Positions 23,547 to 36,563 of a stretch of DNA of 48,666 nucleotides are shown piece after piece; the first letter of the stretch is position 1; every line of letters starts with the position of its first letter. Under the pieces are notes generated by a model. The model saw nothing but the letters and a program-made list of their open reading frames with translations, ran no database searches and was not told the origin of the DNA. The DNA is from Microcaldota archaeon. GTDB taxonomy: Archaea > Micrarchaeota > Micrarchaeia > Micrarchaeales > CABMGC01. The position numbers and the translations under genes are program-made. The stretch lies in NCBI GenBank assembly GCA_021797995.1, contig JAJZYR010000002.1:1-48666 (forward strand). Reading direction: 5' to 3'.

Positions 23547-23568
23547 GGAGAAGTTGAAGCTTGATTTT
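23547..23568 (+). other. 5' arm of 23S processing stem
   Basis: This 22-nt arm, beginning GGAGAAGTTGAAGC, pairs with 26435-26455 with a single bulged T, giving a helix of about 21 bp enclosing the whole 23S sequence, as in archaeal rRNA precursors cut by the splicing endonuclease. Confidence 0.85.
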
Positions 23569-26434
23569 ATAAAGCCACCTAGGGGATGGCTTGGCTCTAG
23601 TAACGACGAAGGCCGTGGCAAGCTGCGATAAGCCGAGGGTAGGCGCATGTCAGCCTTTGAACCTCGGATTGCCGAATTGCGCACCATGAACAATGGCGCG
23701 CGTATACGCGGGGAATTGAAATGACTTAGTACCCGCAGGAGAAGAAAGCATATGCGATTCCATGAGTAAAACGATTGAAAGTGGAGCAGGGCAGCCTGAA
23801 TCCGCCTAAGCGATTGGGCGGAGATGTGGGGCAGTTTTTAGGCTTGTGCATTAGCTGAATATTCTGGAAAGAATGGCCAAAGAGAGTAACAGCCTCGTAA
23901 GCGGATACGCACAAGTTGTACTGCAAGAGAGTAGTTGGGCTTGAGAATGTCTAACGAAGACGGGGGCATTAAACCCCAACCCTAAATATTGACTAGAGAC
24001 CGATAGCGAACAAGTAGCGCGAGCGAAAGCTGAAAAGAACCCACGCGTGTGGGATTGAAAAGATCTGAAACTAGGTGGTTACGAGAACGTACGGCACGGA
24101 AGGAATGTACCCTGCTGAAGAGAAGCTGCGAAAGCAGCAATCGTGGCGGGGCGAACAGTGTCGTACATTTCTTCTCGAAGCAAGAGCCAGGGAGTGCATA
24201 GGAGTGGCAAGCCTAACGGCATAGTGAAAGCGAAGGTGCGCAAGCAATGAGGCACCGGGCATGAAAATGCCTAAGTCACTCTTATTCGACCCGAAGCCAT
24301 TGTGATCTACTCGCGGCCAGGACGAAGTCTAGTTTACACTAGATGGAGGTCCGCAACCTATCCTAGTATATCTGGTTGGGTGAGCTGCGTTTAGGGGCGA
24401 TAGACCACTCGAACATGGCAATAGCGGGTCCCCTCCGAAGTATCTTTAGGATAGCCTTGAGCGAGCTTGCACATAAGGTAGAGCGACCGATCTGAAGTTA
24501 TGGGTTCGAAAGGACCCATCTTCCCGTCAAACTCCGAATATATGTGCTGCGTAGACCTCAGGAGTCGGCGTTGTTGGGTAAGCTAGCAACACGATGCTGT
24601 AAAGACAGTTTCTAAGGTTAAGGTCCCCAAATCCTAGTTGAGTGTATCGAAGGACGGTATTATCTAAGACAGTCGGGAGGTAGGCTCAGAAGCAGCCATC
24701 CTTTAAAAAACGCGTAATAGCGTACCGATTAAGATAGTATCTGCCGAAGATGGACGGGGCTAAGCTAGGTACCGAAACCTTAGTCCAGAGATGGAGGTAG
24801 GAGGGCGTGCTGCACGGCTAGAAGTCGGGTCCTGAGATCCGATGGACCGTGCAGTAGTGAAAATCCTGGTGTAAGTAACAGCAAATAATGGTGAAAATCC
24901 ATTACGCCGGAAGCACAAGGTTTTCCTTGTAATAATTGTTAGCTGGGAGTTAGCCGATCCTAAGCCGGGAGCCAATCACTACCCGGCAAAAGGGAAGCAT
25001 GTTAATATCCATGCGCCTAGTGTGTAGGTGTGGCAACACAAGGCGGATTTCTGACGTTTGGGGATAGGCCTGTAAACAGGAGCAGATGGCTGCAGAGTCT
25101 CGTTATGAGGAGAGGCAGCTAAATGATCTGACAATGGCCGAATTCCTGAGCCAGTGAAAAGGAAATCCGCAGCGATCACATTAGCTCGTACCTAGATCTA
25201 GTACAAGTGCTGCTGGCTGAGAAGGCCAAGGCGTGCCGGGAGAACCAAGGTTAGGGAAATCGGCAAAATAGTGGCGAATGTTTTCTATAAGCCATGTCTG
25301 CGCTTGGTAAGTGCAGATATCATTGACAAGGGGGGAACGACTGTTTATCAAAAACACAACTCACCGCAAAGCCGTAAGGCCTAGTACAGTGGGTGACGCC
25401 TGCTCACCGCTAGTACGCGAAACTCCATTTCAACGGAACTAAGCGCTAGCAAAGAGCGGGAGTAACTCTGACTCTCTTTAGGTAGCGTAATACCTCGTCG
25501 CTTAATAGGCGACTTGCATGAATGGCGTAACGATTCCCCCACTGTCCCAATTTTGGACCCGGTGAAATCACTACGTGGTGTACATGCCACGTTCTTTCTG
25601 TGGGTAGCGAAGTCTCTATGAAACTTGACTATAGTCTGTTGCTGTTGTGTCATGGATGCTGCAAAGCGTAAGTGGGAGCGTCGATGCGGTGGTTCCGGCC
25701 ATCGCGGAGCGATCCTGTGACACCACTCTGCATCTATTATGCAACTTACCAGAAATGGAACAACAGCAGATGGATAGTTGGACTGGGCGGTTGCTTTCGA
25801 TAAGGAAACGAAAGTGACCAATGCTCCTCTTAGGAGGGTTGGGAACCCTCCGTTAAGCATAAAGGCAAATGAGGGGCTGACTGTATTCCGAAAAGCGTGG
25901 AATGCAGACTGGAAACAGGGGCTTAACGAACGATGGATGCCTTTTTGATGAGGCACCATGCTGTCAAACAAGTTACTCTAGAGGTAACCGGTTCGTGGCT
26001 GGCGAGAGTTCACATCGACCCAGCCGTTTGATACACCGATATGGGCTTATCTCATCCTGGCGGGGCAGGACCCGCCAATGGTTGGACTGCTCGTCCATTA
26101 AAGAGATACATGAGCTGAGTTCAGTACGTCGCGAGACAGTACGGTAGCAACTACAGAAAGTGTTAATGTCAGAGGATAAGAACTTCTTAATACGAGAGGA
26201 ACGGAAGTTCGGCGCCTCTAGTTGACCGGTTGTCGAAAGGCACTGCCGGGTAGCCACGCGCTAAGTTGATAAGACCTGAAAGCATCTAAGGACGAAGCAA
26301 CATCCGAAACGAGACATTTAGGGTGGCCGTAGTACACGGCTTTGATAGGGCGGGCGTGAAGACAGGGAGCTTCGGCGACCTGTGAGCGCACCGCAACTAA
26401 ATCCTAATTTCAAACTTTTAGAAAAAGTTTGATC
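23569..26434 (+). rRNA. 23S ribosomal RNA
   Basis: Archaeal-type large-subunit rRNA of about 2.87 kb; ends are set to the inside of the processing stem and may be off by a few bases. Landmarks: GGCAAGCTGCGATAAGCC near the 5' end, TTGAAATGACTTAGTACCCG, the L11 region CAGAAGCAGCCATCC, GGTAGCG before helix 69/71, GAGAGTTCACATCGAC, and TACGAGAGGAAC of the sarcin-ricin loop. No large insertion or intron is evident. It is not linked to 16S or 5S in this window. Several normally invariant positions in domain V are altered (see findings), while neighbouring helices remain paired. Reading frames on either strand inside it are not genes. Confidence 0.95.
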
Positions 26435-29216: not shown

Positions 29217-29383
29217 GCGCACCGTGCGCGCATATGTGATGCCTGCCTTCAAGACGTATACCACAGCCCGCATTGTTTGGCATTATGCCGCGGTAACTGT
29301 TAGGTTCATGTGCAGTCCGCCATAATCCGGTACAGCTGTTGCTGCTTCCCCAGATCCTTCAGGCCGTCATGTGCAACAAAAGG

Positions 29384-29391
29384 TTTATATA
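29384..29391 (+). promoter_or_regulatory. Promoter of the T4SS-like operon
   Basis: TTTATATA within GGTTTATATATTATACC, about 45-50 bp before the first gene. An ACTTAAGT palindrome lies between it and the ATG at 29436. The rest of 29217-29435 holds no gene. Confidence 0.5.
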
Positions 29392-29435
29392 TTATACCTG
29401 AATATAATATCATTTACTTAAGTATAAGTGATAGC

Positions 29436-29819
29436 ATGGGAATAAATGCAGATAGGAGACTGGCAGAATCGCTATGGCTGCTGCGACTGCCCATTCTCGC
29501 CATGGTGGTTATCTTGGGATTGTTTAGCAGGGTGAGCAGCGCATCAGGAATGACGCTGGACATAGTGGGTACGCTGAACTCAATCCAGCAGATACTGGGG
29601 CACGTTGGGCCAATGCTCAGCGCAGTGCTTTTTATTGTCGCCGGGATATTCTATGCCCTCGGACAGCTCTTTCCGTCTTACAAGAGGGCCACGCTGCATA
29701 CGATGGCAATAGACATGATCATCGGCGCGATAATAGTAGCGGTGCTGTCTGTCACCGCGAGCAGCTTCGCACTGGCATCCACGCACCTTCTGGTTAATAC
29801 AACCTCGAATACATTGTGA
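29436..29819 (+). CDS. VirB2/TrbC-like pilin candidate
   Basis: 127 residues with the exact topology of T4SS pilins: a signal peptide (LLRLPILAMVVILGLFSRVSS, cut after SAS), a first helix (GPMLSAVLFIVAGIFYALGQ), a short basic cytoplasmic loop (LFPSYKRATLHT) and a second helix (MIIGAIIVAVLSVTASSFAL). I assign it by topology and by being the first gene of an operon with two VirB4/HerA-type ATPases. In crenarchaeal Ced and Ted DNA import systems the equivalent is CedA1/TedC, which are VirB2 homologues. ATG 29436 is used because the upstream part of the open frame is not protein-like. Four bases separate it from the next gene. Confidence 0.6.
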   Translation: MGINADRRLAESLWLLRLPILAMVVILGLFSRVSSASGMTLDIVGTLNSIQQILGHVGPMLSAVLFIVAGIFYALGQLFPSYKRATLHTMAIDMIIGAIIVAVLSVTASSFALASTHLLVNTTSNTL

Positions 29820-29823
29820 GTCA

Positions 29824-30870
29824 ATGCAGTACCTGCCCTTTGGACAGTATGGTTTCAGCATAGCGGTGTACGTGATCGCAATAATGATGGCGATAAGCGG
29901 AATCGCCCTGGGGCTTGGCTATGCGATAAACGAGAAGAAGTTCAAGGACTTCGGGAGGAACGAGCTTTACCAGTCGCTGCTCAACGGGGCTCTCGTAGGC
30001 GGCATGATTCTCCTCTTCTCGCAGAGCGGGATAGTCAGCCTTGCCATAAACCAGATGACAATGTCGAATTCAACCAGCATGCAGTGCCCCACTGACCTCA
30101 CTGGAAATGCGGCGATATGCCTGGCGTACAACTACCTCATCGGGCCGGGATATTCGCTCGGTGGGGTCTACCATTCCTCGATATTCTCCACCACAACCCT
30201 GATACTGACGGGACTTTTCGCGCTGAACGCCGTACTTGGGGCTATTGCCGCGGCCAAGATCACCATAATCGTCGTTACGATATCCTTCGGGCCTCTGGTA
30301 AATCCGCTAATAGCCGAGATATCGTATGTTATCAAGATGCTAGGCACGGTGGCTATAGGCGCGCTTGTCCAGGGCGCCGTGCTTCTCTTTGTCAACGCGA
30401 GCGCAATAAGCGTTATACTGCCGTCAGGCATAATCCTTAGGACATTTTATCCGACAAGAAAACTCGGCGGCTTTCTCATGGCAATGGCAATAGGGCTTTA
30501 CGTGGTGCTTCCCCTCTCGTACGTCTTTGACGCAACCATTGCAAACACCTACAGCTCGGTCAACCTAAACAGCATCAGCCAGCTAAACAGCACTGCAAGC
30601 AGCATAGACGGAGACATCTATGGGGGTCTCTCTGCTGCGCCGTCCAATTCCCTGCTGTCAGGCATATCGTCGACCCTGATAAGCCCGCTGAAGAGCCTGG
30701 CGGCAGGCTTCTCCTATGTGCTGAACTGGCTCCTGCAGGAGGTGGCATATCTCATAGTATATACTTTCATACTGCCTGCCTTCAGCTTGATAATAACGGC
30801 CGTGGCAATAAGGGAGTTCGCAGGGGTCCTTGGTTCCGAGGCCTTTTTCGGAAGATTCAAACTACTGTGA
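29824..30870 (+). CDS. VirB6/TrbL/CedA-like polytopic channel protein
   Basis: 348 residues, about seven to eight hydrophobic helices and two large polar extracytoplasmic loops (around residues 75-115, with two Cys, and 235-290, Ser/Asn-rich). The block SGIILRTFYPTRKLGGFLMA, followed by AIGLYVVLPLSYVF, is a hallmark I associate with archaeal VirB6-like proteins. A VirB6-type protein forms the inner membrane pore at the base of the pilus. It is sandwiched between the pilin candidate and the VirB3/4-like gene, with 4 bp on each side, which supports that role. No enzymatic motif is seen. Confidence 0.6.
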   Translation: MQYLPFGQYGFSIAVYVIAIMMAISGIALGLGYAINEKKFKDFGRNELYQSLLNGALVGGMILLFSQSGIVSLAINQMTMSNSTSMQCPTDLTGNAAICLAYNYLIGPGYSLGGVYHSSIFSTTTLILTGLFALNAVLGAIAAAKITIIVVTISFGPLVNPLIAEISYVIKMLGTVAIGALVQGAVLLFVNASAISVILPSGIILRTFYPTRKLGGFLMAMAIGLYVVLPLSYVFDATIANTYSSVNLNSISQLNSTASSIDGDIYGGLSAAPSNSLLSGISSTLISPLKSLAAGFSYVLNWLLQEVAYLIVYTFILPAFSLIITAVAIREFAGVLGSEAFFGRFKLL

Positions 30871-30874
30871 TTTA

Positions 30875-31600
30875 ATGGAAGAGCACATTATCGGAAATAA
30901 GCTGTATGCATATATGTTCTACAGCCTGGCGACGATCACCCTGATAGCGAGCATCTTTTTCTACAATCCATGGGTGCTCCTGCTTGCCGCTTCTCTCATC
31001 TCCTTCTCTGCAGTCTATTACAGCTCAGGTCATATCGTGAATAACCTGCTTCTGAGGCGGTCGCTTGTGATAGAGACGTATAACGGGTATGCATTGAGCG
31101 ACAATCTGCTCTCGGCAGTCAAAAAGGTTGGAAACCAGTATCTCTCGGTATCGGTTGCGGTGCTCAGGCTCAATCGCGGGATAGAGGTAAAGGACGGCGA
31201 GATATTGGGGCTCCTTGAGGGCATCGGCGAGCCCTTCTGGTTCACCCTGCAGCTCAGGGAGATAAACAAGAAAACGCTTCTTGAATCGCTGGAGACAAAG
31301 AGGAGGATGAAGGAGATTGCAGCGGGAAGGGTAGCCGGCAGCTCTTATGACAGGGCAAACGCCATCAAGAGGGAGATAGGGCTCGTGGAGCAGGAGATCA
31401 ACAGCATAAGGGGCAGCGGAAAGGCGCTGGAGATCTCAATACAGCTCAGGACGTCAGAGACGTCTGGAGACGAATCTGATGCGGCGAGAGGTTCGGCAAA
31501 GAGCCTTGAACGCGTTGCGGCTTCCTTCTCGACGGTCCTGAATGCCGATTATGAGATGCTTAAAGGGGAGGCGCTGCTCTCCGGAATAGAGGCTTTTTAA
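30875..31600 (+). CDS. VirB3/PrgI-like plus VirB4 N-terminal-like membrane protein
   Basis: 241 residues. Two adjacent helices near the N-terminus (YMFYSLATITLIASIFFYN and WVLLLAASLISFSAVYYSS) resemble VirB3/PrgI. The following part, RRSLVIETYNGYALSDNLLS and later EPFWFTLQLREINKKTLLES, looks like the N-terminal domain of VirB4 ATPases, ending in a helical charged region with EIGLVEQEINSIRG. The ATPase core itself is in the next gene, whose ATG overlaps this stop (TAATG). I therefore read it as a VirB3-VirB4N half of a split VirB4. This is inference from order and pattern. Confidence 0.55.
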   Translation: MEEHIIGNKLYAYMFYSLATITLIASIFFYNPWVLLLAASLISFSAVYYSSGHIVNNLLLRRSLVIETYNGYALSDNLLSAVKKVGNQYLSVSVAVLRLNRGIEVKDGEILGLLEGIGEPFWFTLQLREINKKTLLESLETKRRMKEIAAGRVAGSSYDRANAIKREIGLVEQEINSIRGSGKALEISIQLRTSETSGDESDAARGSAKSLERVAASFSTVLNADYEMLKGEALLSGIEAF

Positions 31601-32724
31601 TGGACATGCAGTTGAGCAGCACATCCGAGGCTTCTAGGCTTTTCTGCCTTCCGATAGTAGACGAGCAGACGCTGGAGAGCATAGAGGAGTCGGCAAGGGA
31701 TGGTATCTTTATAGGCATCTCGAAGACGTATATGCGCCCGTTCTTTCTCAATTTCGGGCTTCTTATGAACCCGCATGTCTTTATAACAGGAATAACCGGA
31801 AGTGGGAAGACATACCTTGCAAGGAGCATGATGCTGAAGCTGCAGGCACTCCTAGACTGCATAGTCATAGTGATAGACTTTACAGGTGAGTATGCAAAGT
31901 TTGCAGAGGCTCTCTCATTCGGCGGCTATACTGCAGACATGCTTGCCGGAGTGCTGGACGAAGGTCTCCCAAGAATAGTGCATATCAGCCTGAAGGGCCT
32001 CAAGGAGGACGAGAGGATCGACAGTGCCGTGTCCGCACTTGATGTTGTCGTGAGGAAGATGCGTGAGCGTGATGTCGGATCCGGGAGGAGGGTCTTTGTG
32101 ATTCTTGACGAGGCATGGAAGCTCATCGAAAAGAGCAGGCCACTGAAAACGATAATAAGGGAGGGAAGGAAGTATGGAGTGGGAATGATAATAGCCTCGC
32201 AGATGATATCAGACATAGATGCCCCATTCCTAAGCAATATGGCAACGGTCTTCGTATTCAGGACGCAGGACAGGGAGGCGCTAGGGAGCCTCCAGCAGAA
32301 CTACGGCCTTAAGGACAGCCATATGTCTGCCATCCAGAACCTTGACGTAGGCTCCTGCTTTGTCATACAACTGAACAAGGCGAACATCAGATACGCCTTC
32401 GGAATAAGGAAGGTTGCCGGCGTGGAGATTGCGCCCTTTATGCGGATAATGGTCGGTGATGGAATGAGCGTTGAGGTTAGCCTACAGGATTTCGAGAGGA
32501 TGGTGAAGGATCTTTGCAACGGCAGGGCCGGAGAAGTGCTTGCCAGGATCAGACCCGAAGGCAGAGTAAGGTTGAATGCCCTTATTTGGGAACTGGTATC
32601 CAACGGCGCCAGACGGAAGGCGGTGCTTGCGTCCCTCAGGGAAATCGGAATACGCGATGAGGACATAGCAGATGCCTTCTCAAGCGTGATGGCTGAAATG
32701 GCTGACGACTATGGAATTAGATAA
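31600..32724 (+). CDS. VirB4-type secretion ATPase
   Basis: 374-residue RecA-fold motor of the VirB4/HerA class. Walker A is FITGITGSGKTYLARSM with Lys70; the segment IVIVIDFTGEYAKF follows the next strand; Walker B is RVFVILDEAWKLIEK, the DEAW form typical of VirB4; REGRKYGVGMIIASQMISD is the conserved sensor/arginine-finger region (GRKYG, Q). The C-terminal 90 residues (VRLNALIWELVSNGARRK and onward) add a helical or winged-helix domain. It lacks the usual VirB4 N-terminal domain, which appears to be supplied by the preceding gene. Likely powers pilus biogenesis or substrate transfer at the membrane. Confidence 0.85.
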   Translation: MDMQLSSTSEASRLFCLPIVDEQTLESIEESARDGIFIGISKTYMRPFFLNFGLLMNPHVFITGITGSGKTYLARSMMLKLQALLDCIVIVIDFTGEYAKFAEALSFGGYTADMLAGVLDEGLPRIVHISLKGLKEDERIDSAVSALDVVVRKMRERDVGSGRRVFVILDEAWKLIEKSRPLKTIIREGRKYGVGMIIASQMISDIDAPFLSNMATVFVFRTQDREALGSLQQNYGLKDSHMSAIQNLDVGSCFVIQLNKANIRYAFGIRKVAGVEIAPFMRIMVGDGMSVEVSLQDFERMVKDLCNGRAGEVLARIRPEGRVRLNALIWELVSNGARRKAVLASLREIGIRDEDIADAFSSVMAEMADDYGIR

Positions 32725-33391
32725 GGATCTCTCAAAGTTCCTTTCAAGCAGGATAACCGTGAATGCAAGGGTTGTTACCAGCATTCGCAAGGTAAGGGCC
32801 TCACTGGGGGCTTATCCTGGCCTGATTGAGGTAGGATACGGAAGCGGGATAAAATACCTGATTGACTGCGAGCGCGAGGCGGGCAAGTTCTATCTGCTGT
32901 CCTTGAGCAAGAGTGCAATCGTATTCGAGGTCTTCTCAAAGGTCTCCCCGCTATACTTGATGCGGGAGAGCCTTCTACGGTTGCTAAGCATCTCTGCCAT
33001 GCTGTCTGAAGACTATGAGTTCGACATGCGCTCGCTGTTCCCATACCTGATAGAGGTGCTTGCCTGCCAGGAGCTCAAGGGCATATGCGAAGTTCGCAGT
33101 GGGGCTGATGCGAACTGCGGCGGCGACATAATCCTAGCAAGGCGCATAACCCAGCTGCTGAAAGAAAGAAGGGCCTTCAGCTCTGCGCTTGACGCAGCAT
33201 CCTCGAAACTCGCGAGGATCACGGCCCTTTTCATTATATGCAGATACGGCCATGCGGGCGACGTAAATGAGATAGCAAGAGACTGTGGGCTGACTGATGA
33301 GGAGGTCGAACGGGCGCTTGGGGGCATGCATGAGATAGGCTATAAGAGGCTGCCTTCGAGAAGCGGAAGATTCACGCTGGTGAGGGAATGA
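32711..33391 (+). CDS. Unknown operon protein with C-terminal winged helix-like part
   Basis: 226 residues, no membrane helix, no family recognised. The N-terminal half is alpha/beta (LIEVGYGSGIKYLIDCEREA, FYLLSLSKSAIVFEVFSK). The C-terminal 60 residues, ITALFIICRYGHAGDVNEIA followed by GLTDEEVERALGGMHEIGY, look like a winged helix. It overlaps the VirB4-like gene by 14 bases and the next gene by four, so it is made together with the machine and may recognise DNA or link the ATPase to the channel. The role is inference from position. Confidence 0.6.
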   Translation: MELDKDLSKFLSSRITVNARVVTSIRKVRASLGAYPGLIEVGYGSGIKYLIDCEREAGKFYLLSLSKSAIVFEVFSKVSPLYLMRESLLRLLSISAMLSEDYEFDMRSLFPYLIEVLACQELKGICEVRSGADANCGGDIILARRITQLLKERRAFSSALDAASSKLARITALFIICRYGHAGDVNEIARDCGLTDEEVERALGGMHEIGYKRLPSRSGRFTLVRE

Positions 33392-33882
33392 CTGACGGCT
33401 TTATTAATTATATCTCGCAGTTTCTGCCCCTCGCCGCAGGCATAGGGATAATGATATGCCTCAGGTCGGTACGGCATGCACGCAGGAGGATATGCATCGA
33501 CACGCACGCCGGAGGACCTGAAGGCATGGTGCGCAGCTGCCGGCAAATGGGCATGTCTGCAAATGCGGCCACCCCTGAGCGGCAGGACTTCTCGCGGTTT
33601 GTAAAAGACAATCTAATAATCAACGGCAGGACTGGCGATTTCAGCGGCAGCGGACTGGACAGGGCTGCTTTCTCATGCCTTGGAGTCATAGACGAGAATG
33701 ACCTCCACAGTCTGAGGCGATATCTGCGCACGTCGAAAATGGGGAGCATCTCGCTGTTTATTAGGGCCAAGACGGATCTCGGCGGATATATTTCGGGCTT
33801 CAACGCGGAAGCTGGCCTTCTCCTTGCTTTCCTGACAGACGCAAGGCTCAGGCTGGTAGGTGAAAACGATGAACTTGCTTGA
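33388..33882 (+). CDS. Membrane-anchored unknown protein of the T4SS-like operon
   Basis: 164 residues with one N-terminal helix (YISQFLPLAAGIGIMICLRS) followed by a basic stretch (RHARRR), so the bulk is probably cytoplasmic. The soluble part contains GRTGDFSGSGLDRAAFSCLG and ends GLLLAFLTDARLRLVGENDE. No family recognised. ATGA overlap with the preceding gene and a 14-base overlap with the next show tight coupling. Possibly an assembly or coupling factor. Confidence 0.55.
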   Translation: MTDGFINYISQFLPLAAGIGIMICLRSVRHARRRICIDTHAGGPEGMVRSCRQMGMSANAATPERQDFSRFVKDNLIINGRTGDFSGSGLDRAAFSCLGVIDENDLHSLRRYLRTSKMGSISLFIRAKTDLGGYISGFNAEAGLLLAFLTDARLRLVGENDELA

Positions 33883-34057
33883 CACTGCGACAACAGCCGC
33901 AATGGAGGCAAGTGCCATATGTTCAGTGATAGCGGTGGATATGATACTACTCAGCAAGATCGCAGGACGCGACCAGACATCTGAACTCCTGTTCAACAGG
34001 GCAGTAGGCCTGATAGCCCTATTTTTCATCATTGTTGCTGCGAAGGCGGTGATTTGA
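33869..34057 (+). CDS. Small two-helix membrane protein
   Basis: 62 residues, MNLLDTATTAAMEASAICSV then a helix through IAVDMILLSK, a short polar loop (IAGRDQTSELLFNR) and a second helix (AVGLIALFFIIVAAKAVI). Helical hairpins of this size are typical of VirB2/VirB3-like or CedA1/CedA2-like subunits. It starts inside the end of the preceding gene; GTG 33860 is an alternative start. The next gene encodes a second such hairpin, and both lie between the two ATPase genes. Confidence 0.6.
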   Translation: MNLLDTATTAAMEASAICSVIAVDMILLSKIAGRDQTSELLFNRAVGLIALFFIIVAAKAVI

Positions 34058-34150
34058 ATCAACATTAAGCATATTTATACGCGGAATGGAAGGCTGGAGC
34101 GCTGGCTGCATGCCATAGCAGGAATAGGGATCGGGGCATCAGCCCTTGCG

Positions 34151-34333
34151 GTGCTGGTATCCGCAGGCGCAGGCATTTATATCGCTGTGGCCTTGTCGGC
34201 TGCAATAGCGGCAGCAGCGGCAGCGGTAATAGGAATCAACAGGGAGCCAGTAGGAAAGGATGCCATGGCAGTGCTGCTTTTCTCGGCGCTGAATCTGATT
34301 ATCGCGATGCTCCTCGTCTTTATGATAAGATGA
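34151..34333 (+). CDS. Second small two-helix membrane protein, c-subunit-like hairpin
   Basis: 60 residues from GTG 34151: a helix (GIYIAVALSAAIAAAAAAVI), a loop GINREPVGKDA and a second helix (LLFSALNLIIAMLLVFMI). The Ala/Gly-rich first helix and the R-x-P loop recall rotor c-subunits, but the ion-binding acid is replaced in SALNLIIA, so a proteolipid-like pilin or channel subunit is more likely. The frame is open upstream to 34058 and a TATA-like ATATTTATA lies at 34071-34079, so a longer form with a non-ATG start is possible. It ends just before the large ATPase gene. Confidence 0.5.
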   Translation: MLVSAGAGIYIAVALSAAIAAAAAAVIGINREPVGKDAMAVLLFSALNLIIAMLLVFMIR

Positions 34334-34337
34334 TTTC

Positions 34338-36563
34338 ATGCCTGAACTCCGCATTATCGAGGTAAGCGCGCTGCCAAAGCTCTTCAGCAATAAAGATTTC
34401 ATAAGCGCAATGCTTGGTTCACAGTTTCTTATATGCCATGACCTCGAGAGGAGCAGGACATTTATGGCAACATGCAATTCCGACGGCATCGTGAGGCTTG
34501 GCAGACTTGTTACAGGCATCTCTTTCAGGGAGGCGGACTCCAGAACCATCGAGCTCCGTAATCCGCTGTACATCGAAGGATACTGCCCTGGAAGAGAAGA
34601 GAGGAAAGGCGTGCAGGTTGAGGAGACATTTAGCGACCTTTACCTGCTTTTTGGAAATACGAACATGCGCTTCATGGTTTCGTTTGTCCCGTCAGGCCCT
34701 GGAGAGATAGGAAGCGTCAAGCGCAGGGTGGAGAGGCTTGCAAGCAGCAGGAGCGTCAGGATGACAAGGATGATGGGAAGCAGGCAGGCCGCATCATCCT
34801 CGGAATCGGTCCAGATGGACCTGTATTATGGCTCAGACGAAAGGTTAATTCTGCTTGAATTGCTTGAGATGCTGAATAAGGCCGCATTAAACAATGGCAT
34901 TTCGTATAAGGTAGGCTTCGTCATAGACGGAGACTATGGCAAATGCGGCTTTCTTGACTATCTGATGTCGAAAATCCTCGTTTTTGACAAGTCTGCAGTC
35001 AATGAGCGAAACCTTGACGGGATATTCGGTTTTCTGGGATCTGCTGATGCGATACCGCTTTCATGCGAGCATGCCGCCAGGCTCCTCCAGTTCTCAAATA
35101 GGATAACGAGGGAGGAGATGATACCCACCGCTTTTTCAGGTAGCGTCGGAGACATCGAACTCGGTGAATTCCTTGAGGGCGCAAACACAGGAAGGGGGGA
35201 GACTGTAAGGTTGGATACGAGGATATTCAACCTTGGAACAATCATATCGGGAATGCCTGGTTCAGGCAAGACCGCCACCGCAATGGGCCTTCTGAACCAG
35301 CTTGCAGTCAGATCAGGCGCTAATGCCGTAATGATATCCCCGACAAAGGAATGGAACGGCCTCGGAAGGGAGCTCGGAATGAGGATTATCAGGATCTATG
35401 ACGATCAGACCAGGATAAACTTCTTCAAGTGCGATTCTGGGATAAATATAGGAAGATTCTATGAAAACCTGGCAATGCTCATAGCCTCGGCATCAAATGC
35501 TGGACCATACAGGAATTCACTCGAAAAGAGCCTGCTGGCCGCCTTTCATAAAGCATATGGCAGGACAACTGCGCCCGATCCTGCGGCAGTATATGATGAG
35601 ATAGAAAATGCAGTAATAGAACAGCATGGAAAGAAGAATAGTGTGGAGGTGACATTCACGAAGCACGGGGAAAATATCATGGCGGCGCTGGAAGACCTCA
35701 GGCTTATGCTCCTAAGGCCCCAGTTTGCATATGCTGAAGGAATCGACTTTAATGACCTGCTGAAGGCAGGCGTCGTCTTCGACCTGTCTCAGGTAAGCAA
35801 TAACATGAAGCCGTTCTTTTACGCTCTGATACTGAATCAGGTATACAGCCTCGCCGATGCACTTGACGAGAACGGCAACGACAAGCTGAGGATGATGATG
35901 TGCCTTGAAGAAGCCCAGCTTGTGTTTGACAATACTGAAGAGTCTGCAGCAAGCATGGACCTCAAGCAGAGGATACAGGACTTCAGGAAGAAGGGCGTCG
36001 GGTTGTTCATGATAACCCATAACATCACCGACATAGACATAGGCATCAGGCGGCTCTGCCAGATAAAGCTGTATTTCAGGCAGAGTTCAGATGTCACAAA
36101 ATTTGCATGCAATGACCTGATCTTCCCTGAGGACCAGAAAGAGCAGATTATAGACAAGCTGAAACGGCTTCCGCAGGGGGTCTGCGCACTAAGTTACATG
36201 GCGCTTGATGGGAACCTGCGCGTTCCCAAGCAGTCGATATTCGTGAAACTCTACAAGCATGACATAAATGCCGGCGAAGAGGGCGGAGGGGACAGGCAGG
36301 CAACCGCGAACGCGGTGGCTCTGTGTGGCACGATGTCCATCACGCTCCTTGATGCAGAGGGCATGCCGAGGCCAGATGTACGGATAGAAGTCTGCTATCT
36401 GGGCGAGACGCTGCATCGAATGCCAACAGACAAGGCAGGGAAGGCCGTCGTAAACGATACCCTCATGGGTAAGCTTTATAAGCTCAGGGTCCTTGGAGAC
36501 AGGAAGAGGGAGACAAGAACCTTCACAGTGATTGGTGGCAGGGAGAACACCGTCAGGACGTAG
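34338..36563 (+). CDS. Second HerA/VirB4/VirD4-type ATPase with C-terminal beta domain
   Basis: 741 residues. The first 280 form an N-terminal domain containing a Ser/Arg-rich linker (RMTRMMGSRQAASSSESVQM). The motor domain follows: Walker A IISGMPGSGKTATAMG with Lys311, NAVMISPTKEWNGLG after the next strand, FDLSQVSNNMKPFF, Walker B MMMCLEEAQLVFDN with Glu-Glu near residue 522, and RKKGVGLFMITHNITDID as the sensor region. The last 60 residues (MSITLLDAEGMPRPDVRIEV ... DKAGKAVVNDTLMG) look like a carboxypeptidase-regulatory or Ig-like beta sandwich, unusual for such ATPases. Candidates are a CedB-like translocation motor or a coupling ATPase. It closes the operon. Confidence 0.8.
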   Translation: MPELRIIEVSALPKLFSNKDFISAMLGSQFLICHDLERSRTFMATCNSDGIVRLGRLVTGISFREADSRTIELRNPLYIEGYCPGREERKGVQVEETFSDLYLLFGNTNMRFMVSFVPSGPGEIGSVKRRVERLASSRSVRMTRMMGSRQAASSSESVQMDLYYGSDERLILLELLEMLNKAALNNGISYKVGFVIDGDYGKCGFLDYLMSKILVFDKSAVNERNLDGIFGFLGSADAIPLSCEHAARLLQFSNRITREEMIPTAFSGSVGDIELGEFLEGANTGRGETVRLDTRIFNLGTIISGMPGSGKTATAMGLLNQLAVRSGANAVMISPTKEWNGLGRELGMRIIRIYDDQTRINFFKCDSGINIGRFYENLAMLIASASNAGPYRNSLEKSLLAAFHKAYGRTTAPDPAAVYDEIENAVIEQHGKKNSVEVTFTKHGENIMAALEDLRLMLLRPQFAYAEGIDFNDLLKAGVVFDLSQVSNNMKPFFYALILNQVYSLADALDENGNDKLRMMMCLEEAQLVFDNTEESAASMDLKQRIQDFRKKGVGLFMITHNITDIDIGIRRLCQIKLYFRQSSDVTKFACNDLIFPEDQKEQIIDKLKRLPQGVCALSYMALDGNLRVPKQSIFVKLYKHDINAGEEGGGDRQATANAVALCGTMSITLLDAEGMPRPDVRIEVCYLGETLHRMPTDKAGKAVVNDTLMGKLYKLRVLGDRKRETRTFTVIGGRENTVRT

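Follow-up and report, generated by a model that had tools for sequence, protein, structure and literature searches.

A nine-gene operon of Micrarchaeota built of type IV secretion-like parts: a candidate machine for DNA transfer

The operon described here comprises nine genes (29436-36563, + strand) of a Microcaldota archaeon (assembly GCA_021797995.1, contig JAJZYR010000002.1, 1-48,666, forward strand); the window hereafter refers to this whole stretch of 48,666 nt. The genome from which it comes is a Candidatus Micrarchaeota metagenome-assembled genome (MAG) of 945 kb, 94.6% complete, and belongs to a tiny archaeon that probably depends on a host. The machine encoded by these genes is very likely derived from a type IV secretion system (T4SS), and the explanation that we favour, with somewhat better than even confidence, is a chromosomal, T4SS-derived transfer machine of the Micrarchaeota, kin in kind to the Ced and Ted systems, that imports DNA. 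The parts, their order, their conservation and the predicted folds of genes 2 and 3 are established by our analyses, and no description of the operon was found in the open-access papers searched. An earlier note, made from the sequence alone, had proposed a Ced/Ted-like logic with extra components, which agrees with the pilin family matches of gene 1, the VirB6 and VirB4 folds of genes 2 and 3, and CedB and CedD as the best models for the two ATPases.

Gene content and conservation

All nine open reading frames (ORFs) lie on the + strand and are separated by short gaps or overlap, as had been described: the stop of gene 3 and the ATG of gene 4 share 1 nt at 31600, genes 4 and 5 overlap by 14 nt and genes 5 and 6 by 4 nt. 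The features, with transmembrane segments abbreviated as TM and amino acids as aa, are as follows.

TATA-like element TTTATATATT, 29383..29394, + strand: putative promoter about 45-50 nt 5' of gene 1, read from the sequence
Gene 1, 29436..29819, + strand: predicted VirB2-type pilin, 127 aa
Gene 2, 29824..30870, + strand: predicted VirB6/CedA-type polytopic channel protein, 348 aa, about 6-7 TM
Gene 3, 30875..31600, + strand: TM hairpin and predicted VirB4 N-terminal domain (NTD), 241 aa
Gene 4, 31600..32724, + strand: VirB4/CedB-class ATPase domain, 374 aa, without an N-terminal domain of its own
Gene 5, 32711..33391, + strand: soluble protein with an N-terminal domain and a C-terminal helix-turn-helix (HTH)-like domain, 226 aa
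Gene 6, 33388..33882, + strand: one N-terminal TM and a cytoplasmic domain, 164 aa, fast-evolving
Gene 7, 33869..34057, + strand: two-TM hairpin, 62 aa, from ATG 33869 (alternative GTG 33860)
Gene 8, 34058..34333, + strand: small two-TM protein with an (H)IY(K/T) motif close to the N-terminus
Gene 9, 34338..36563, + strand: second, HerA/CedD-class ATPase, 741 aa

An iterated profile of each gene was run on 40 loci (at most 20 kb each) from 39 genomes, which span two families and about 40 genera; their annotation is that of Candidatus Micrarchaeota MAGs, with a Marsarchaeota label on a few. This synteny survey, which the earlier note had proposed, recovered the same order on one strand in the 40 loci, with genes 1-5 in nearly all of them, and the gene order is therefore not a matter of chance. 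The gene 3 profile was recovered in 40/40 loci and that of gene 5 in 35/40, and gene 6 was found by sequence in 29; in the second family, its position is occupied by a diverged TM protein. Mean column identity was highest in genes 1-4 and 9 (41-51%), followed by gene 5 (34%) and gene 6 (21%). Most intact loci have two small ORFs at near-constant offsets between genes 6 and 9, encoding a two-TM protein of 60-70 aa followed by a two- to three-TM protein of 87-105 aa, the counterparts of genes 7 and 8. A left-out member scored above all controls in 16/24 cases for gene 7 and 10/17 for gene 8; sequence kinship can thus be demonstrated for about two thirds, the others being matched by place, size and topology.

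Gene 9 had a strong match (E <1e-170) in 46/60 genomes searched, its own genome counted, and is sited elsewhere in the genome in several relatives, so genes 1-8 form a tighter unit. A match of the gene 2 type was found in 263/301 genomes of the phylum, many of these matches being weak and of the kind found in a second cluster described below. The GC content of the operon (0.519) equals that of the window (0.520), so the operon does not stand out as a compositional island, but its flanking genes vary among genomes. Gene 4 sequences cluster largely by family. Two loci merit separate mention. In L053 (genome G029), a frame of 457 aa resembling an IS66-type transposase lies between genes 8 and 9, accompanied by a separated fragment of gene 9, and one genome bin (G032) contains two copies of the operon (L060 and L061, on contigs C3 and C2), possibly through duplication or strain mixture.

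Predicted components of the machine

The product of gene 1 has a signal-like TM followed by a two-TM hairpin and, as judged from its sequence, is a VirB2-type pilin. The window copy matched Pfam TrbC with an E-value of 8.8e-4, below the Pfam gathering cut-offs, and among the 34 homologues TrbC was matched by 22 (best 1.6e-5), T4SS_pilin by 21 (best 4e-7) and the pLS20 conjugation membrane protein family by 13; the VirB2 topology first read from the window copy is thus borne out. All 34 C-terminal tails contain an N-x-S/T sequon (1000 shuffles: mean 22, maximum 31) and the genome encodes an STT3 oligosaccharyltransferase; the extracellular C-terminus is probably N-glycosylated, to judge from these sequences.

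Gene 2 had no match by sequence in Pfam, PHROGs or NCBIfam. Its AlphaFold model (predicted local distance difference test, pLDDT, 76.5), searched with Foldseek against the PDB, placed TrwI/VirB6 of R388 first (8rt9, probability 0.99), the next best match being unrelated (0.41). By its predicted fold, gene 2 is a VirB6-type polytopic channel with R388 VirB6 as its one strong fold match, in keeping with the VirB6-like protein of the earlier note. Two cysteine residues in a loop, Cys 88 and Cys 99, are invariant in 37/37 homologues and could form an extracellular disulfide. PDB sequence-profile searches with genes 1-3 gave nothing significant, the A3 and A1 profiles finding no CedA1 or TedC chain. 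We also considered the N-terminus of gene 2 as a pilin homologue, as reported for CedA/CedA1; the match was not significant here.

Gene 3 likewise lacked a usable match in Pfam, PHROGs or NCBIfam, and a search of the genome with PF03135, the VirB4 N domain, found nothing, so this protein is recognised by fold alone. The ten best PDB fold matches of its model (pLDDT 86) were all R388 TrwK/VirB4 entries or complexes with TrwK/VirB4, with probabilities of up to 1.00. The best NCBIfam models for gene 4 were CedB (2.5e-16), CedD (2e-12), VirB4 (5e-10) and HerA (4e-9), with bit scores of 59 for CedB, 46 for CedD and 35-38 for HerA models, and its Pfam matches were TrwB (6e-12) and AAA_10 (1e-10). 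The gene 4 protein starts a short way ahead of its Walker A region, and an N-terminal domain is missing. Since gene 3 has the VirB4-NTD fold and gene 4 lacks this domain, we regard the two genes as a split VirB4: on the predicted fold of gene 3, both the NTD and the ATPase of VirB4 are present, in two pieces. The earlier reading of a VirB4N-like protein followed by a VirB4-type ATPase therefore holds for both genes.

The second ATPase, encoded by gene 9, consists of an N-terminal region of about 270 aa, an ATPase core and a C-terminal beta domain, with no TM. Its best NCBIfam models were CedD (6e-10) and CD1110 VirB4-like (1.6e-9) and its Pfam matches were HerA_C and DUF87; the HerA/VirB4/VirD4 class first assigned to it is here refined, by curated models, to HerA/CedD. 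Its core is homologous to the gene 4 family (hhalign, 98.5%), and 2/22 gene 9 homologues have a CarboxypepD_reg domain. The motifs that had been read in the two ATPases are all present (GITGSGKT and DEAW in gene 4, GMPGSGKT and LEEAQ in gene 9). Scores were far below the curated cut-offs of both models (59 bits against 700 for CedB; 38-46 against 600 for CedD), so we file neither ATPase as CedB or CedD. The N-terminus of gene 9 was also considered as a VirB4 NTD and rejected: a hidden Markov model match to the NTD of the second cluster was weak (E 4e-4) and had no hhalign support.

The HerA_C and DUF87 matches of gene 9, and HerA-type PDB sequence matches of both ATPases, raise the question of whether these are HerA-NurA repair ATPases with unrelated membrane neighbours. 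The genome has no NurA by a search that was positive in 7 control genomes (this and the absences given below were judged with single Pfam models in a draft that is 94.6% complete), the CedB and CedD models outscore HerA, and the ATPases are found in order with pilin, VirB6-like and VirB4-NTD genes in 40 loci, an arrangement repeated in the second cluster. Such a placement had been put forward in the earlier note as the outcome to look for against its proposal; the searches instead gave CedB above HerA for gene 4, no NurA, and T4SS folds for genes 2 and 3. The conserved order and these folds largely refute the repair reading, which we consider highly improbable.

Genes 5, 6, 7 and 8 had no usable Pfam, PHROGs or NCBIfam match. 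The gene 5 profile matched (E 1e-11) a second-cluster protein that ends in an HTH, and genes 6-8 encode membrane or linker proteins that evolve fast. The ORFs of the earlier note stand, with corrections to two of them: ATG 33869 is a more likely start for gene 7 than GTG 33860, and the frame of gene 8 opens right after the in-frame stop of gene 7 (34058), with no ATG, GTG or TTG before the conserved HIYT motif. A rare start codon, readthrough and an assembly error are the candidates for this missing start. A TATA-like stretch, CATATTTATA, overlaps this region (window 34058-34150). In L068 (genome G058), the equivalent of gene 6 has an extra immunoglobulin/carboxypeptidase-regulatory-like domain, in a style akin to the C-terminus of gene 9.

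An attachment-only pilus, binding a host or a biofilm and using its motors for assembly and retraction with nothing transported, would suit the invariant sequon of the pilin tail, the apparent loss of the operon in some near-complete genomes and the fast evolution of genes 6-8, as expected of partner recognition. However, two HerA-superfamily motors and a VirB6 channel exceed the needs of an adhesive pilus, and Micrarchaeota such as Mia14 also have type IV pili (PMC5498576). We therefore consider this reading improbable.

Mechanism, cargo and direction of transfer

In the assembly that we infer, the two-helix pilin of gene 1 would polymerise into a pilus seated on the membrane channel of gene 2, gene 3 would anchor an N-terminal ring to the membrane, and the ATPase would come from gene 4. 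Gene 9 would act as a second hexameric motor on the cytoplasmic side, in the way that CedD accompanies CedB or VirD4 accompanies VirB4. Since gene 9 has no TM, we propose that it is perhaps held at the membrane by the proteins of genes 6-8; for TraI/TraJ of pIP501, it has been proposed that a small two-TM protein anchors the coupling ATPase (PMC12857230). The machine would import DNA, probably single-stranded, on contact with a host cell or a sister cell, for use as nucleotides and/or in recombination.

The cargo is probably nucleic acid, and we rate import as an even call. Both CedB and CedD are required for DNA import by Ced (PMC11868833). The absence of relaxase, nuclease and integrase remarked on in the earlier note was upheld for the relaxase and NurA: PF03432 has no match in the whole genome (other relaxase families were not searched), and neither has NurA. 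DprA and the purine AIRS_C domain were not found in the genome either, the latter suggesting that there is no de novo purine synthesis. We prefer DNA import because, in the archaeal relatives whose function has been tested, import depends on both ATPases, and because PF03432, NurA, DprA and AIRS_C were not found in the genome.

The main rival is export, in which DNA or protein effectors would be injected into a host archaeon, in the manner of bacterial T4SSs, or chromosomal DNA spread to other cells. It owes this rank to the Patescibacteria, ultrasmall epibionts in which a T4SS without a relaxase is essential for growth on the host (PMC12102498). The core parts are the same as those of exporting T4SSs, and gene 9, with its VirB4-like scores, could be a coupling protein. 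Nevertheless, the genome has no PF03432 relaxase, no effector-like gene was noticed in the operon, and the archaeal relatives with tested functions require their ATPases for import and not for export (PMC11868833); we thus consider export unlikely, although it is the most probable of the alternatives. A mobile element, as the differing flanks might indicate, is not preferred: gene 4 groups largely by family, the composition matches the genome and no PF03432 relaxase was found.

Several points weigh against DNA import by a T4SS-derived machine. The fold matches of genes 2 and 3 have E-values of 0.038 and 0.0077 and TM-scores of 0.38-0.42, so that their support, as predicted models, lies in rank and probability. 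PDB sequence searches ranked HerA-type proteins above VirB4 for genes 4 and 9, with no CedB chain among these matches, and hhalign found no match between the N-terminal region of gene 9 and the gene 3 family. The Ced/Ted membrane proteins CedA/TedA and TedC are set beside the operon by description, and the cargo and direction are those that we infer. Furthermore, a strong gene 2 match is absent from some genomes that are at least 90% complete (e.g. G033, G035, G038, G041, G052 and G053), and the operon is therefore not needed by every lineage.

Among known systems, Ced of the Sulfolobales (CedA, CedA1, CedA2, CedB, CedD) resembles the operon in having a VirB2-type pilin, a VirB6-type channel, two HerA/VirB4-class ATPases and small two-TM extras, in lacking a relaxase and in being chromosomal (PMC9905601, PMC11868833). 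Unlike Ced, the machine is encoded by a single operon, in a DPANN archaeon, with VirB4 split into a TM-NTD protein and an ATPase and with the extra conserved genes 5, 6 and 8. In Ted of the Thermoproteales (TedA, TedB, TedC), the pilin gene likewise directly precedes a VirB6-like gene, with a VirB4-like ATPase nearby and, in many cases, a HerA-like gene in the vicinity; the signal peptide of TedC is cleavable. However, the nine genes include no ParA/MinD or Rad50, and their motor is split. The R388 Trw T4SS, through its VirB2-VirB6-VirB4 inner membrane complex, provides the nearest solved folds for genes 2 and 3, but the nine genes have no match to VirB5, VirB7-11 or a relaxase, and the system is archaeal, with no outer membrane core complex.

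The CD1110 and Mbov_0397 matches suggest, by sequence, an MPF-FATA placement of the VirB4. In MPF-FATA systems, including the Patescibacteria T4SS (TrsD, VirB4, PrgI), TrsD is a separate protein, remotely homologous to the VirB4 N-terminus and encoded with VirB4, and the Patescibacteria system also resembles ours in belonging to an obligate epibiont and lacking a relaxase (PMC12102498). The operon differs in that no VirB1 or VirB8 was recognised in it, its VirB4 is cut to the ATPase domain and it is archaeal. Nanohaloarchaea, likewise DPANN, have giant SPEARE proteins with a VirB4/TraG-like ATPase for which a role in host interaction is proposed, but these are fusions of the ATPase with a giant surface protein, and the excerpted account describes no operon of pilin, VirB6 and NTD genes (PMC10266531).

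A second cluster and its distribution

The gene 2 profile led to a second cluster in the same genome (G000, contig C1:4000-23999; locus L192, 1448-17699). Its order is a VirB2-type pilin (TrbC 1.5e-5), six tandem VirB6-like proteins (profile E-values 3e-16 to 5e-7), two VirB4-NTD-like proteins (3e-12 and 1e-19), an ATPase of 509 aa (4e-64 with the gene 4 profile; CedD, CD1110 and CedB are its best curated models) and a gene 5-like HTH protein (E 1e-11). The cluster was found in five more genomes (L195-L199), whole or to the end of the stretch examined, and a minimal set of pilin, VirB6, NTD and ATPase genes in several further families of the Micrarchaeota (L201, L203-L205). A tree of the ATPases unites those of the second cluster with those of the minimal set (support 100/100), away from the ATPases of gene 4; the two systems are thus paralogues of long standing and not recent copies. 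Plasmid searches with the gene 4 ATPase and its second-cluster relative gave only distant VirB4/TraC/DUF87 proteins; none covered 80% of either query, and the matches listed included no archaeal plasmid.

Among the genomes checked, the six-VirB6 cluster looks general and the nine-gene operon accessory, a strong gene 2 match being absent from some genomes that are nearly complete. The six VirB6 paralogues of the second cluster all differ and could together make up a heteromeric pore. One second-cluster VirB6-like protein (L199, 1942-4869, genome G027) reaches 975 aa through a large insertion. Elsewhere in G000, locus L207 (C25) encodes a HerA-like ATPase of 601 aa whose C-terminal region, GPDVIAFEGRERIAVEYE, reads like a PD-(D/E)xK nuclease domain, and the window contains a complete archaeal 23S rRNA (23556-26418) and no 16S or 5S rRNA match in its 48.7 kb; the rRNA genes appear to be unlinked.

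Genome G042 carries both the nine-gene order (L070) and the second cluster (L195), and the co-cultured Candidatus Mancarchaeum acidiphilum Mia14 is an apparent carrier of both, so the system is testable in co-culture. In an excerpt of its description, Mia14 grows with Cuniculiplasma and lacks purine and pyrimidine synthesis, and type IV pili, Sec and Tat are reported there with no mention of these clusters (PMC5498576). We tentatively extend our interpretation to the Micrarchaeota as a whole, as a possibility that falls short of even odds. T4SS-derived machines would be core equipment. In two families, an ancestral pilin-VirB6-NTD-ATPase set would have expanded to six tandem VirB6-like proteins and two VirB4-NTD proteins, which would make a heteromeric pore and motor ring, and the nine-gene machine would stand beside it as a separate system. 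Through such machines, purine auxotrophs would draw on host DNA, an archaeal parallel to the T4SS that Patescibacteria cannot do without on their hosts.

The split VirB4 would be a natural dissection of the VirB4 motor. How DPANN archaea obtain the building blocks that they do not make themselves, and exchange genes with their hosts, is an open field, to which the operon contributes a defined apparatus. Its presence would carry T4SS-derived DNA transfer beyond the Crenarchaeota into DPANN, in parallel with the T4SS on which Patescibacteria depend to grow as epibionts.

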